IMG/VR virus record: IMGVR_UViG_3300031576_000106
Coordinates: 1-44,712 of that record
DNA length: 44,712 nt
DNA from: a virus
Strand: one strand, 5' to 3'
Part shown: positions 130-22,236 of the stretch, one piece after another
How the letters are laid out: the number at the start of each line of letters is the position of its first letter
How positions within the stretch are numbered: the stretch's first letter is position 1
Position numbers and translations under genes: made by a program
The notes under the pieces: generated by a model
Told to the model about the DNA's origin: nothing
The model's database searches: none
What the model saw: the letters and a program-made list of their open reading frames with translations, nothing else

Positions 130-510
130 GTGAACGGAACCGAACGTCAGCGGGCGCATTCTCTCGCCCACAAGAATCGTAATCGGGAGCAGATCAATGC
201 TCGCGTCCGCGCCCGCTACCGATCAAACCCGGAGCCATTCAGGGCCGCTCGGTGTCGCATGCGGACGAAGCTTCGCGCCGAAGTGATTGCCGCCTACGGC
301 GGTCGCTGTAAGTGCTGCGGAGAATCCATGCCGGAGTTCCTTGGCGTGGACCATGTGAACGGAAACGGCACGGCTCATCGACGGGTGGTCGGTGATCTGT
401 ATCACTGGCTTAGATCCAGAGGCTTCCCCCAAGATGGGTTTCGCCTCCTCTGCCACAACTGCAATATGGCAATCGGGCTCTATGGTTCGTGTCCGCATGG
501 ACAAGGCTGA
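130..510 (+). CDS. HNH endonuclease, phage type (126 aa)
   Basis: A likely metal-dependent DNA endonuclease. The C-terminal half has a CKCC pair, then VDHVNGNG (the HNH histidine and asparagine region), then CHNC before the C-terminus; two CxxC knuckles around a DH..N core are typical of HNH proteins of this small phage type. The N-terminal 45 residues are basic (NRNREQINARVRARYR). I chose GTG 130 because a strong GGGAGG lies about 6 bases upstream; an earlier GTG at 52 is in frame but lacks such a site. It overlaps the methyltransferase frames downstream. It could be a free-standing homing endonuclease or a packaging-associated nuclease; the sequence does not decide. Confidence 0.75.
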   Translation: MNGTERQRAHSLAHKNRNREQINARVRARYRSNPEPFRAARCRMRTKLRAEVIAAYGGRCKCCGESMPEFLGVDHVNGNGTAHRRVVGDLYHWLRSRGFPQDGFRLLCHNCNMAIGLYGSCPHGQG

Positions 511-1679
511 TGGGATGGCTCTACGTCCCCTCCGAGTACTGTCAATCTGCTCCGGCGTCGGAGGATTTGAGCTTGGAATCAAGCTCGCCGTCCCCTGGTC
601 CCGTTGCGTGTGTTTCGTTGAGCGGGACGCTTTCGCCGCGGCCGTTCTCGTGGCGCGGATGGAGGACGCGGCCGTGGATCGCGCTCCTATCTGGGATGAT
701 CTCACGACCTTCGATGGCGAGCCGTGGCGTGGCGTTGTGGATCTCGTCTCTGCGGGCTTCCCGTGCCAGCCAGTCAGCTACGCCGGGAAGCGCGGAGCCC
801 AGGACGATGCCCGTTGGCTCTGGCCCTCCGTCGCCCGCGTGGTTCGCGAGGTGGGACCGCGAGTCGTCGCGCTGGAGAACGTCCCAGGTCTCCTGTCTGC
901 TGGATTCGGAGACGTTCTTGGCGACCTGGCCGCGATGGGGTTCGATGCGGAGTGGGGTGTGTTCAGCGCGGACGGAGTCGGCGCGACGCATCTCCGCGAA
1001 CGAGTCTTCGTGCTGGCCCACCGCGAAGGCGAACGATGCGGAGAAGCGCGGGGACTTCGACTCGACGAATCCACGGAACGGGCTCGCAGGGGCGGCGACC
1101 GGATGGCCGACACCGAACGCGGCGGATGGGGACCGGCGCTCGGACACGATGATGCGCGGCAACCCGACGCTGCTCGGAGCGGCGAAGAACTGGCCGACGC
1201 CGAGATGCGAGGACGCGGAGTCGTGCGGGAATCACCCCGACAGCGGGGGCGACTCACTGGGAGCGGTGGCGCGAGGTCTCGATGTCCCGAAGGGGGGCCG
1301 GGGGGTGCGGCATGGCTCCAGCGAGACCGGAGTGATGCCGGACGGGACGAAGCGCCAGGTGGGTCTGGAGAATCAAGCGCGCAGGCTGTGGGCGACCCCG
1401 GACGCGAACGCGATGCAAGCGCAGATGTGGGCCACGCCGACCGCGGGCGACACGAAGGGCTCGGACCTGACGACGCGCGAAGGTGGGCATTCCCTCCCGC
1501 ACCAGGTGCGCGAGACCGATGGCGGCAAGCTATCGAACTCGGTCTACCTCAACCCGCCGTTCGTCGAGTGGCTGATGGGATTCCCCATCGGATGGACCGA
1601 CTTCGGTGCCTTGGGAACGGCGTGGTCGGACTGGTCGAGGCGCATGCATTCCTCACTCTTGCGGCTCGGCTGGGAATGA
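489..1679 (+). CDS. Overlapping second frame, WPTP-repeat methylase-associated ORF (396 codons)
   Basis: This frame lies +1 relative to the methyltransferase and is open for 396 codons. It reads repeated units GWPTPNAADG, NWPTPRCEDA, LWATPDANAM, MWATPTAGDT and then LNPPFVEWLMGFPIGWTD. From memory, these are hallmarks of a C-terminal region common in phage cytosine methylases. The WPTP units are the same DNA that gives LADAE-type units in the methylase frame. By eye, over 1531-1679 third-position GC is about 40 of 47 codons here against about 27 of 49 in the methylase frame, so codon use favours this frame in the C-terminal half. It may be an overprinted gene, the true C-terminus reached by a +1 shift near 1013, or a relic. 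Start GTG 489 is only the first available codon. Confidence 0.5.
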   Translation: MSAWTRLMGWLYVPSEYCQSAPASEDLSLESSSPSPGPVACVSLSGTLSPRPFSWRGWRTRPWIALLSGMISRPSMASRGVALWISSLRASRASQSATPGSAEPRTMPVGSGPPSPAWFARWDRESSRWRTSQVSCLLDSETFLATWPRWGSMRSGVCSARTESARRISANESSCWPTAKANDAEKRGDFDSTNPRNGLAGAATGWPTPNAADGDRRSDTMMRGNPTLLGAAKNWPTPRCEDAESCGNHPDSGGDSLGAVARGLDVPKGGRGVRHGSSETGVMPDGTKRQVGLENQARRLWATPDANAMQAQMWATPTAGDTKGSDLTTREGGHSLPHQVRETDGGKLSNSVYLNPPFVEWLMGFPIGWTDFGALGTAWSDWSRRMHSSLLRLGWE

Positions 1680-1717
1680 CCCCCGCCCGCGCGCAGAGCC
1701 CGAGGGAGGTGCGATGA
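515..1717 (+). CDS. DNA (cytosine-5)-methyltransferase
   Basis: Transfers a methyl group from S-adenosylmethionine to C5 of cytosine in DNA. Seen in order: motif I LSICSGVGGFELGI near the N-terminus, motif IV GFPCQPVS with the catalytic cysteine, motif VI ENVPG, a motif VIII-like HLRERVFVLAH, and a C-terminal RVADGIPHRMDRLRCLGNGVV (motif X type). Between VIII and X lies a variable segment with repeated MADTER, LADAEM, VGDPGR, VGHADR units. About 400 aa, normal for the family. ATG 515 puts motif I close to the N-terminus; ATG 482 and 497 are alternatives. The stop forms ATGA with the next gene, which supports this frame. From about 1020 onward a second frame (489-1679) is also open and resembles another known C-terminus (see that entry). 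Confidence 0.85.
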   Translation: MALRPLRVLSICSGVGGFELGIKLAVPWSRCVCFVERDAFAAAVLVARMEDAAVDRAPIWDDLTTFDGEPWRGVVDLVSAGFPCQPVSYAGKRGAQDDARWLWPSVARVVREVGPRVVALENVPGLLSAGFGDVLGDLAAMGFDAEWGVFSADGVGATHLRERVFVLAHREGERCGEARGLRLDESTERARRGGDRMADTERGGWGPALGHDDARQPDAARSGEELADAEMRGRGVVRESPRQRGRLTGSGGARSRCPEGGPGGAAWLQRDRSDAGRDEAPGGSGESSAQAVGDPGRERDASADVGHADRGRHEGLGPDDARRWAFPPAPGARDRWRQAIELGLPQPAVRRVADGIPHRMDRLRCLGNGVVGLVEAHAFLTLAARLGMTPARAQSPREVR

Positions 1718-15284: not shown

Positions 15285-15632
15285 ATGGTAATCTGGTCCC
15301 TCGTAGCGCTCGCTTCACTGGTGCTCGCGGCTCTCGCGGCGGTCGCCGGTTTCGTCCTCGGACGCTGGGTCGAAATCCGATCGTCCCAGGCGACTCTATC
15401 CGCGATCGACCAGACCAGCCGGGCCCTCTCGATGACTATGAAGGCGGCGGCCGAAGCGCTGACGACCGAGACCAGGCTGACGAACCTTGAGCAGATCCTC
15501 ATCGACGCCGAGCGGAAGGACGAGAAGCGTTGGGAGCAACTGATGGCGCTGATCCCGGGATACGTCCGCGAGCGACCGATCCGGACTGGCCCCAGCTCGA
15601 GGGCGCCGATGCCGACCTTCCGAAGCCAGTAA
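15285..15632 (+). CDS. Membrane-anchored coiled-coil protein (115 aa)
   Basis: An N-terminal transmembrane segment (IWSLVALASLVLAALAAVAGFVLG) is followed by a long amphipathic helix (TLSAIDQTSRALSMTMKAAAEALTTETRLTNLEQILIDAERKDEKRWEQ). ATG 15285 follows GGGTAGG. It overlaps the terminase N-terminal frame by 103 bp. Unknown role; membrane protein next to packaging genes is unusual. Confidence 0.6.
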   Translation: MVIWSLVALASLVLAALAAVAGFVLGRWVEIRSSQATLSAIDQTSRALSMTMKAAAEALTTETRLTNLEQILIDAERKDEKRWEQLMALIPGYVRERPIRTGPSSRAPMPTFRSQ

Positions 15633-17491
15633 GGCGCCCGGGCGCCAAGAAGGGCGTCAAGTTCCCCAACCGCAAGCGTAAGACGCTCGTCTTCCAGACC
15701 CGCGGCAAGAGCCCGCGCTCCCCAATCGAAGCGCAGCCCGCGAAGCCCCCCAAGGACGAGCTCCACCTCAGCCGATTCCGTGAGGACTTCGACTTCTACG
15801 CCCCGCATGTGCTGCGCATCCTGCCGATGGACCGCGAGTGGATGCCGCTGCGCTTCAACCCCGCCCAGCTCCTGCTTCATCGCGCGCTCGAGCGCCAGCG
15901 CGTCCAGGGCCTGCCGATGCGCGCGATCGTATTGAAAAGCCGACAGACCGGCATCTCGACCTACGTGCAGGCGCGGGGCTTCCACACCTGTCACATGCGC
16001 GAGGGCCGCAAGTTTCTGACGCTCGCGCACAAGCTGGAGTCGGCGAAGCACCTCTTCGATATGTCGCGCGGCTTCCACGACCATCTACCCAAGCAGGGGG
16101 TGCTCTCCGACCGCAAGCGCATCGCCAATCGACGCGAGATCCAGTTCGATAACGGATCAACAATCCAGGTCGAAGTCGTCGGCGAGGTCCGCAGCTACAC
16201 CTGTGACGTACTTCACCTCAGCGAGACGGCGTTCTGGCTTGAGCCACAGAAGACCATGCGCTCGATCCGGCAGACCGTGCCGCGGCGCCCCAACACCATC
16301 GTGGTGATTGAATCGACGCCGAACGGGCTCAACTATTTCCATGATCTCTGGGTGCGCGCGGTGCGCGGCAAGAGCGGCTACGCGCCGGTCTTCATCGCCT
16401 GGTTCAACGACACCGAATCCCTGACCGTCGATCCCTGGTTCACCGAGAACGATCTTGACCCCGAGGAGCGACGGCTCATGGATCAATTCGGGGTCACGCT
16501 CCGGCAGCTCGCGTGGCGGCGGATGAAGATCGAAGACGACTGCGACGGCGACCTCGACGCCTTCAACCAGGAGTTTCCGAGCGACCCGGAGACCTGCTTT
16601 TTGAGCAGCAGTCGGCCAGTGTTCGACACCGACGGGATGGCGTTTCAGACCGCTAACATGATCCCCGACGAAGACCTGGAGACCAAGGAAATCTCCTGGT
16701 CGGTGAGCGAGAGCAAGCCGGTGATCGAAACGGTGCGAAAGGGCCGGCTCGTGATCTTCGATAACCACCCGATTCCGCGGCACTCGTACATCCTCGGCAT
16801 CGACCCGTCGGAGGGCGATGCGCAGTCGGATCGTTCGCCGATTGCGGTGCTGGATCAGATGACCCTCGCCTTCGCCGGCTTCTGGGTCGGTCGTGCCCCG
16901 CCCGACCTTCTGGCTCGTCACGCCTTCGCGATGGGGCACCTCTTCAACGAGGGACAGCTCATCTGGGAGGCGAACCTTCACGGCGGCTCCTTCGGCCTCG
17001 CGATCCAGGAGCTGGGCTACTTCAACATCTGGATGCGCCGCGTGAACTCGGACACCGTCGCGGGTCGGATCACCGACAAGCCCGGATACATGAACACTCG
17101 GAAGTCGCGTGCCATCCTCTACGACACCATGCGGAAGTTCATCCGCGAGCGGATCTCGGCGGTTCGCCATCCGGAACTGGTCTCTGAGCTGGGGACCTTG
17201 ATCTTCGATGGCGACCAGCCGCGCGCGCAGCGGGGCTACCTGGACGATCTGGTGGTGGCGGCCGCGCTCTGTCTGGTGGCGCACCGGGGCGCGGCCGACG
17301 CGCCGCTTGAGCCGCTGCCGATGGAGACGTTGCGCGCCGCGCACGCGCGCGTGGCCTGGAAGCTCGAGATCGGCCACAAGCTCCGGCCCGACGACATCGC
17401 CGATCCGAACGTGACATGCGAGGACATTGAGAAGTACGATGAGCTGATGGAGCGCAGAGAGCGCCGCGCTCGACGTCGGGCCATGACGTAG
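15530..17491 (+). CDS. terL: Terminase large subunit (653 aa)
   Basis: The ATP-driven packaging motor and nuclease. ATPase: Walker A-like KSRQTGIST near residue 135 and Walker B with catalytic glutamate in VLHLSETAFW near 226. Nuclease: GIDPSEGDAQSD near 420, with further acidic residues in the C-terminal part including YLDDLVVAAAL. N-terminal homology begins at FREDFDFYAPHVLRI; the 80 residues before it are basic and proline-rich. The only upstream start in frame is TTG 15530, overlapping the previous gene by 103 bp, so the real start may be a non-standard codon further down. Length is normal or slightly long. Confidence 0.85.
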   Translation: MGATDGADPGIRPRATDPDWPQLEGADADLPKPVRRPGAKKGVKFPNRKRKTLVFQTRGKSPRSPIEAQPAKPPKDELHLSRFREDFDFYAPHVLRILPMDREWMPLRFNPAQLLLHRALERQRVQGLPMRAIVLKSRQTGISTYVQARGFHTCHMREGRKFLTLAHKLESAKHLFDMSRGFHDHLPKQGVLSDRKRIANRREIQFDNGSTIQVEVVGEVRSYTCDVLHLSETAFWLEPQKTMRSIRQTVPRRPNTIVVIESTPNGLNYFHDLWVRAVRGKSGYAPVFIAWFNDTESLTVDPWFTENDLDPEERRLMDQFGVTLRQLAWRRMKIEDDCDGDLDAFNQEFPSDPETCFLSSSRPVFDTDGMAFQTANMIPDEDLETKEISWSVSESKPVIETVRKGRLVIFDNHPIPRHSYILGIDPSEGDAQSDRSPIAVLDQMTLAFAGFWVGRAPPDLLARHAFAMGHLFNEGQLIWEANLHGGSFGLAIQELGYFNIWMRRVNSDTVAGRITDKPGYMNTRKSRAILYDTMRKFIRERISAVRHPELVSELGTLIFDGDQPRAQRGYLDDLVVAAALCLVAHRGAADAPLEPLPMETLRAAHARVAWKLEIGHKLRPDDIADPNVTCEDIEKYDELMERRERRARRRAMT

Positions 17492-21186: not shown

Positions 21187-22236
21187 TTGGCTGTCACCAT
21201 CGACTACGATCAGGTCTCGACGCTCGCGCGCGAGCACCTGATCCCGGTCCTGAAGGACAACTTCTTCAAAACCACCCCGCTGTTCGTGCGTATGCGGGGC
21301 CGCCACGATTCGTTCGCGGGCGGGCGGCAGATCACCCAGCCGCTCGGCTTCGCGCCCGAGGGCGGCGGTGGGCAGTGGTGGTCGGGAGCGGACAAGTTCG
21401 ACATCCGCGCGCGCAATCCGATCACGGCTGCGGTCTTCTACGCTCGGAACTTCGAGGTTCCGATCACCGTCCTTCAGGAAGAGGAAGATCAGGTCAACGG
21501 CCCCGAGGAAGTCATGCCGCTCGTGGCCACCAAGCTCAACATCGCGCGCCGCACGATCAACGAGCAGGTCGGCGGATCGGGCGGCGTCTACAACGACGCC
21601 AGCAATCCCAAGGCGATCACCGGGCTCCAGTACGCGCTGCCCGATTTCACCGGCGGCGCGCCGGGCGTGTTCCCGTCGAACAAGAACTACGGCGGCATCA
21701 CGACCTCGAGCACGGTCAACACCTGGTGGAACTCGCAGGGCGATAACACCGCCTACGCCACCGGGCCGGCGGCGAGCTACGTGAACCAGGCCAACTTCGC
21801 GCCCTGGGACAAGATGCTCGCGGCTCAGGGGCTGGCGGCCGGGCGCAACTGCACGCTGATCGTCTGCAACTATGGCGTGTGGAACGACGTGAAGGCGCTC
21901 ATCAATCGCAACACCGTCTACAACCGCCCGCAGCAGAGCCAAGCGATGCACGAGGCCGGTTTCGACAGCTTCATGTACAACGGCAAGACGGTGGTGGTCG
22001 ATCCGTTCTGCCCGCGCAACAGCACCACCAAGGTGGAAAAGGTCTACTTCATCGACGAGGAGTCCTTCCACCTCCACATCCACGTCCGCCGGAACTTCGA
22101 GCTGCGTCCGTTCCGGGAGATGCTGGACCAGGCGGCGCAAGTCGCGTATCTGTTCTTCCGCGGTGAGATCACGTTCGACGAGCGCCGCACCAGTGGCGTG
22201 CACTCGAACGTGGACACCACGCTCACATCGCCGTAA
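21187..22236 (+). CDS. Major capsid protein (349 aa)
   Basis: Start TTG 21187 with AGAGGAGG upstream. MAVTIDYDQVSTLAREHLIPVLKDNFFKTTPLF is a typical N-arm, followed by GGRQITQPLGF, ARNFEVPITVLQEEEDQVNGPEEVMPLVATKLNIARRTIN (the spine-helix region) and near the C-terminus VYFIDEESFHLHIHVRRNFELRPF. The pattern fits an HK97-fold coat protein of about normal length. Position right after the scaffold-like gene supports it. Confidence 0.8.
   Translation: MAVTIDYDQVSTLAREHLIPVLKDNFFKTTPLFVRMRGRHDSFAGGRQITQPLGFAPEGGGGQWWSGADKFDIRARNPITAAVFYARNFEVPITVLQEEEDQVNGPEEVMPLVATKLNIARRTINEQVGGSGGVYNDASNPKAITGLQYALPDFTGGAPGVFPSNKNYGGITTSSTVNTWWNSQGDNTAYATGPAASYVNQANFAPWDKMLAAQGLAAGRNCTLIVCNYGVWNDVKALINRNTVYNRPQQSQAMHEAGFDSFMYNGKTVVVDPFCPRNSTTKVEKVYFIDEESFHLHIHVRRNFELRPFREMLDQAAQVAYLFFRGEITFDERRTSGVHSNVDTTLTSP

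Follow-up and report, generated by a model that had tools for sequence, protein, structure and literature searches.

The window analysed here is a stretch of 44,712 nt, positions 1 to 44,712 of the IMG/VR record IMGVR_UViG_3300031576_000106. Its genes for a terminase large subunit (15530-17491) and a major head protein (21187-22236) identify the window as all or part of a tailed-phage genome; PHROG matches were absent for most of the remaining long ORFs tested in it. About 1.2 kb of this phage DNA is shared by two overlapping frames on the plus strand, designated frame A and frame B, the latter lying in +1 relative to A. An HNH/endonuclease VII-like ORF (52-510; phrog_2255, E 4e-8) adjoins the pair on its upstream side.

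Frame A (515..1717, 400 aa), which lies within an ORF open from 392, encodes a C5-cytosine DNA methyltransferase, here taken as the catalytic subunit and referred to as the alpha chain. It carries motif I (LSICSGVGG, the AdoMet loop; 539..565, AlphaFold2 pLDDT about 95), motif IV (GFPCQ, with the catalytic Cys; 755..769), motif VI (ENV; 875..883), motif VIII (HLRER; 989..1003) and motif X (LGNGVV; 1610..1627), and the assignment to the C5-cytosine methyltransferases follows from motifs I, IV (PCQ), VI (ENV) and VIII. Among 60 relatives, G81, P83 and C84 of motif IV, E121 and N122 of motif VI, R161 and R163 of motif VIII and G367 of motif X are invariant, and N368 is nearly so. The initial annotation had read both frames as open, A at 515-1717 and B at 489-1679 (396 codons), and had given motifs I, IV and VI and the C-terminal LGNGVV to A; all of this was confirmed, and motif VIII was found to be present too.

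The match of frame A to PF00145 (E 1.9e-29) covers model positions 2-166 of 324 only, and the match to TIGR00675 is likewise partial. In the AlphaFold model, a confident core (residues 1-172) and a motif X helix (residues 358-390; pLDDT 91-96) are accompanied by a disordered middle (residues 176-330, pLDDT mostly 31-48). Foldseek aligned this model with M.HhaI at an E-value of 2e-13, and A has the same catalytic core as M.HhaI and other single-chain C5-methylases. C5-methylases require a target-recognition/motif IX domain. Unlike the single-chain enzymes, frame A seems to be without such a small domain in its own frame, because the core and motif X are modelled with confidence, the middle is disordered, the PF00145 match ends at position 166 and the M.HhaI alignment spans about 170 columns.

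Frame B begins with GTG 489 when taken as an open frame (489-1679, 396 aa) and would encode a beta chain of 389 aa (510..1679, plus strand) when read from the conserved ATG 510. It matched phrog_1008 with an E-value of 1e-34; this phage family bears the name 'DNA methyltransferase'. Two of its motifs are overprinted on A: W[KR]TSQ (873..887), a B consensus that lies inside the catalytic domain of A and overlaps motif VI, and TWPxxGxMR (924..950), read over DLAAMGFDA of A and evident from codon choice. These are followed by the WPTP modules (1014..1520, with W at 1014, 1104, 1191, 1389 and 1428), which are about 35 residues long and number 0-7 per B protein; the same bases encode the disordered LADAE linker in A (pLDDT 31-48), and dN/dS over them is 0.41 in B and 0.82 in A. 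The WPTP region is proposed to be the target-recognition region. Further downstream lies the motif IX-like segment LNPPFVEWLMGFPIGWTD (1548..1601), near-invariant in B, and the C-terminal sequence of B reads LNPxFVEWLMGFPxGWTD. The WPTP modules and LNPPFVEWLMGFPIGWTD in B, with LADAE over the same bases in A, had already been recognized in the initial annotation.

In a profile alignment, the tail of type 2 and type 3 relatives matched the canonical motif IX-X (LTPRECARLQGFP...YKQFGNSV) at E 9e-5, a single comparison made with those relatives; the B frame of the window has LNPxFVEWLMGFPxGW. AlphaFold of the core of B alone, for which the alignment left out loci from annotated public records, gave no confident fold (pLDDT 59, pTM 0.19). 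Such a poor solo model would be consistent with folding only on A, yet is no evidence for that. No relevant match was obtained when sequences of solved structures were searched with the B profile and the motif IX-X tail. Besides, Pfam had no match for B or for the type 2 and type 3 C-termini, and NCBIfam had nothing for B.

Relatives were gathered with B and A baits, B profiles and an A profile, and the loci were scored with profile models of the A catalytic part, the A motif X segment and B. At 293 loci, including 71 of the 80 bacterial-genome loci, A carried motif X and was overlapped by B in +1, and the scan with the A profile, which offers an unbiased test, revealed B in +1 at 80 of 80 loci. 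Among the scored loci, no B was found without an overlapping A, except for one contig-edge fragment. The pair also occurs on a Leptospira plasmid, a Bacteroides plasmid and a plasmid of the archaeon Methanomethylovorans, where B is open at 41-48% GC, and the overprinted stretch, roughly 170-400 codons long, is shared by very different hosts. A B-like +1 frame is also present in Bordetella phage PHB09 and Salmonella phage SEN5, whose methylases are more distant. In bacterial genomes, B is absent wherever the PF00145 match extends into the C-terminal half; where B is present, the gene mostly has a match that stops near model position 166 and an A-type C-terminus, and some short matches are also without B. 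A DNA search of E. coli returned only four chromosomal relatives, two of which were examined; the chromosomal copy of E. coli PCP07014 (1500-2261 of its locus) is annotated as a pseudogene and has an internal stop. A second, divergent methylase type with the C-terminus VDGxxxRVGxLRxYGNAI was observed at two loci (L321, 1261-2268; L322, 1267-2256). This type also has a +1 WPTP frame, ending LNPxxxxWLMGLPxEW, and is likely the same system further afield.

That a recent indel or sequencing error swapped the frames in the window has next to no probability: a few relatives do show swaps (Mycobacterium phage Llama versus Spikelee), but about 300 independent loci in unrelated genomes, from diverse phages and bacteria to an archaeal plasmid, share the two-frame arrangement, which also disposes of the recent single-base change considered in the initial annotation.

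Frame B has no stop within the window, where 3.6 are expected (P 0.005). Across 127 related loci, 205 B stops were observed, mostly outside the core of B, where shuffling the codons of A synonymously predicts 627. The third frame of the same loci is not depleted (1500 stops against 1476 expected), nor is the +1 frame of 62 ordinary C5-methylases without B, drawn from Gamma- and Alphaproteobacteria plus a few others (1016 against 1022, made up of 511 against 534 and 505 against 488). The third-position GC computed over 1531-1679, 84% for B and 55% for A, agrees closely with the roughly 85% and 55% estimated by eye in the initial annotation, and over 1031-1530 it is 85% in B and 60% in A.

Codon choice was tested at conserved A residues in 216 non-redundant loci. 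The p-value was below 1e-6 in 27 of 59 conserved columns; these values treat the loci as independent and overstate certainty, and the effect is very large. At columns A138, A139, A142, A144 and A145 the codon is fixed by B (p 1e-21 to 4e-82), and the codon choices of A spell the B motif TWPxxGxMR. For instance, Ala139 is GCC in 143 of 144 cases (Pro in B) and Gly142 is GGG in 161 of 207 (19% in the pool; Gly in B), while Leu138 is CTG or TTG (Trp in B), Asp144 is GAT (Met in B) and Ala145 is GCG (Arg in B).

These data bear on whether B is an untranslated by-product of the amino-acid sequence of A and of GC-rich codon usage. Homology of A alone can indeed yield B-profile hits to E 1e-12, as at one locus, L410 (E 9e-12 and 9e-10). 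Nevertheless, B stops in synonymous shuffles of A are three times as numerous as those observed, the +1 frame of the 62 methylases without B is not depleted, codon choice at A-conserved sites tracks B residues, and in the middle of the overlap A1/B3 sites evolve faster than A3/B2 sites. A by-product of this kind is already refuted at the level of selection, and we regard it as exceedingly improbable.

The start of B lies beside that of A. In the window, a double start is formed by ATG (510-512, for B), GG and ATG (515-517, for A), the ATG of B, which rather than GTG 489 is its conserved start, sitting 5 nt before the ATG of A; relatives use ATGNATG. Among 202 loci, the ATG of B is found at +4 of the start of A in 59, and B start codons are found at -2 in 16 and at -5 in 13. 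An ATG at +4 is present in 1.4% of control genes, and the +4 arrangement is typically preceded by a ribosome-binding site (ATGAATGAGYTGG). Frame B is conserved, is selected as a coding frame and has a conserved start of its own.

Selection on each frame was estimated as dN/dS in 16 disjoint pairs and in the bins A1-60, 61-120, 121-172, 173-320 and 321-388. The values are 0.81, 0.68, 0.37, 0.41 and 0.46 for B and 0.22, 0.14, 0.21, 0.82 and 0.41 for A. Purifying selection on B sets in at A residue 121 (0.37-0.46 over A121-388), and the middle of A, its linker, is nearly neutral. Therefore, the middle is the territory of B, the core is that of A, and the stretch from motif VI to motif VIII and the C-terminus serve both. 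Purifying selection thus acts on both frames over the overlap (0.14-0.22 for A in the core), as in an overprinted pair. Of the three explanations put forward in the initial annotation, it is overprinting that gains support, since in hundreds of loci B is conserved, depleted of stops and kept by purifying selection, and the overprinting is almost certainly real.

A programmed frameshift, by which A would be translated to motif VIII and, after a +1 shift near 1013, continue into B as one fused chain, had been the second of these explanations. The better-constrained frame does switch near motif VIII, and A does stop just past motif VIII in some relatives. Against it, the best-conserved overprinted motifs, W[KR]TSQ and TWPxxGxMR, are found before position 1013 and are under strong selection in frame B, where dN/dS is 0.37 over A121-172; B possesses its own conserved start beside that of A; and the main type would lose motif X, which is encoded in frame A. 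A frameshift near 1013 is therefore rejected as the source of B, and a fused chain is highly improbable.

The allocation of motifs IX and X to the two frames differs among relatives. In the Streptomyces phages Lilbooboo, phiBT1 and Samy, the Mycobacterium phages Firecracker and Twister and several bacterial loci, A ends directly after motif VIII, and the +1 frame holds the motif IX-like segment and then motif X. In type 3 relatives (L003, 1318-3540; L310, 2556-4130), motifs IX and X are both in A and the WPTP part remains in B, indicating that B is more than a carrier of motif IX. The order of modules on the DNA is constant and the split between two chains varies by lineage, which fits chains complementing each other. 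At three loci (L096, 3818-5264; L032, 3829-5428; L265, 226-1936), the catalytic part, the first WPTP part and motif IX stand in three different frames, which may reflect mutation, assembly error or a further split. The frames are swapped between Mycobacterium phages Llama (L313, 1494-2250) and Spikelee (L317, 1494-2252); in Llama the N-terminus of B is joined to the C-terminus of A, and the locus, annotated as two 'DNA methylases', is probably a broken copy.

As judged from sequence, the motif content of A and B is complementary, the motif IX-like part being absent from A and present in B, and this complementarity, which the initial annotation had missed, favours two subunits of a single enzyme over a pair of unrelated proteins. 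We consider it probable that the locus encodes a two-chain C5-cytosine methylase, with an alpha chain and a nested beta chain. The alpha chain would provide the fold that binds AdoMet and carries out catalysis (motifs I-VIII), as well as the motif X helix, with an unstructured linker between them. The beta chain would supply the part that alpha lacks, namely a target-recognition region of WPTP modules and motif IX, and its N-terminal segment, overprinted on the catalytic codons of alpha, may form the alpha-beta interface. From one ribosome-binding site and two start codons a few nucleotides apart, both chains could be made from one message and would then assemble on DNA into one methylase. In this scheme, we infer the translation of B, the formation of the heterodimer and target recognition by the WPTP region. 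The stop counts and their controls, selection, the starts, the association with A, structure, the motif IX profile and the shuffling of modules count in its favour. The lack of a confident B fold, of a structure match by sequence, the loci L003 and L310, and extra frame jumps at a few loci, possibly mutations or errors, count against it. It is conceivable, if rather doubtful, that the variable WPTP modules form a modular target-recognition array, through which the nested subunit sets the specificity of the methylase module by module.

B may instead be a real overprinted protein with an independent function, such as anti-restriction, regulation of A or a nuclease activity, and not a methylase subunit. 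All of the coding-constraint evidence fits this equally, and B has no Pfam match or confident fold. However, B is found only with the type of A that misses the C-terminal half of PF00145, the counterpart of its motif IX-like segment in type 2 and type 3 relatives can be aligned with canonical motif IX, and in phiBT1-like phages, where A stops after motif VIII, it is B that holds IX and X. An independent function is thus unlikely, and the two-chain methylase is retained as the preferred reading.

Natural two-chain C5-methylases are already known, among them M.EcoHK31I and M.AquI, with the recognition sequences YGGCCR and CYCGRG, respectively. Lee, Kam and Shaw reportedly described in 1995 that the beta gene of EcoHK31I is nested in the alpha gene in another frame, an arrangement resembling the present one, in which B lies in +1 and is selected. 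The large chain of M.EcoHK31I contains motifs I-VIII and X and the small chain motif IX (PMC3404938), and the large chain A of the window has motifs I-VIII and X as well. The predicted target-recognition domain of M.EcoHK31I was placed in its large chain (PMC3404938), whereas here the region resembling it is proposed to lie in B and the middle of A is disordered; the present family, moreover, is mostly of phage or prophage origin. In M.AquI, alpha holds motifs I-VIII and beta motifs IX-X (PMC3404938). The phiBT1, Lilbooboo, Samy, Firecracker and Twister relatives are alike in having IX-X in the second chain, as found in L311-L316 and L253, whereas motif X of the window is in A, and the present genes differ from those of M.AquI in overlapping deeply in +1. 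In addition, fragments of several single-chain C5-methylases complement each other (PMC3404938). What is new here is a hidden family of large extent, in which starts are doubled and motifs are shuffled between frames.

Database records almost always show the pair as one gene, sometimes in the wrong frame. Only A is annotated in Leptospira, and only B in Mycobacterium phage Bipolar and Acidovorax phage Alfacinha1. The name of phrog_1008, the family of B, suggests a complete enzyme, whereas the members checked are frame-B proteins without catalytic motifs that overlap a real catalytic gene. Annotated 'DNA methyltransferases' at two further loci (L005, 2146-2697; L323, 1493-2626) are likewise frame B without catalytic motifs. 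The 'g59 internal gene' of Paenibacillus phage Sitara is frame B; its GenBank record places it inside the methylase gene and proposes no function, and a paper on Paenibacillus phages lists methyltransferases and does not discuss the overlap. In the literature searched, no paper was found that describes an overlapping frame in phage methylases or a widespread overprinted pair. To our knowledge, prokaryotes offer few cases of long overprinted genes on the same strand for which there is evidence of function. If the two-chain reading is true, many phage C5-methylases in databases would need their nested partner to be complete, and this would account for clones that are inactive and for 'DNA methyltransferases' that are mislabelled; the family would be a natural case of both halves of one enzyme encoded by one stretch of DNA.
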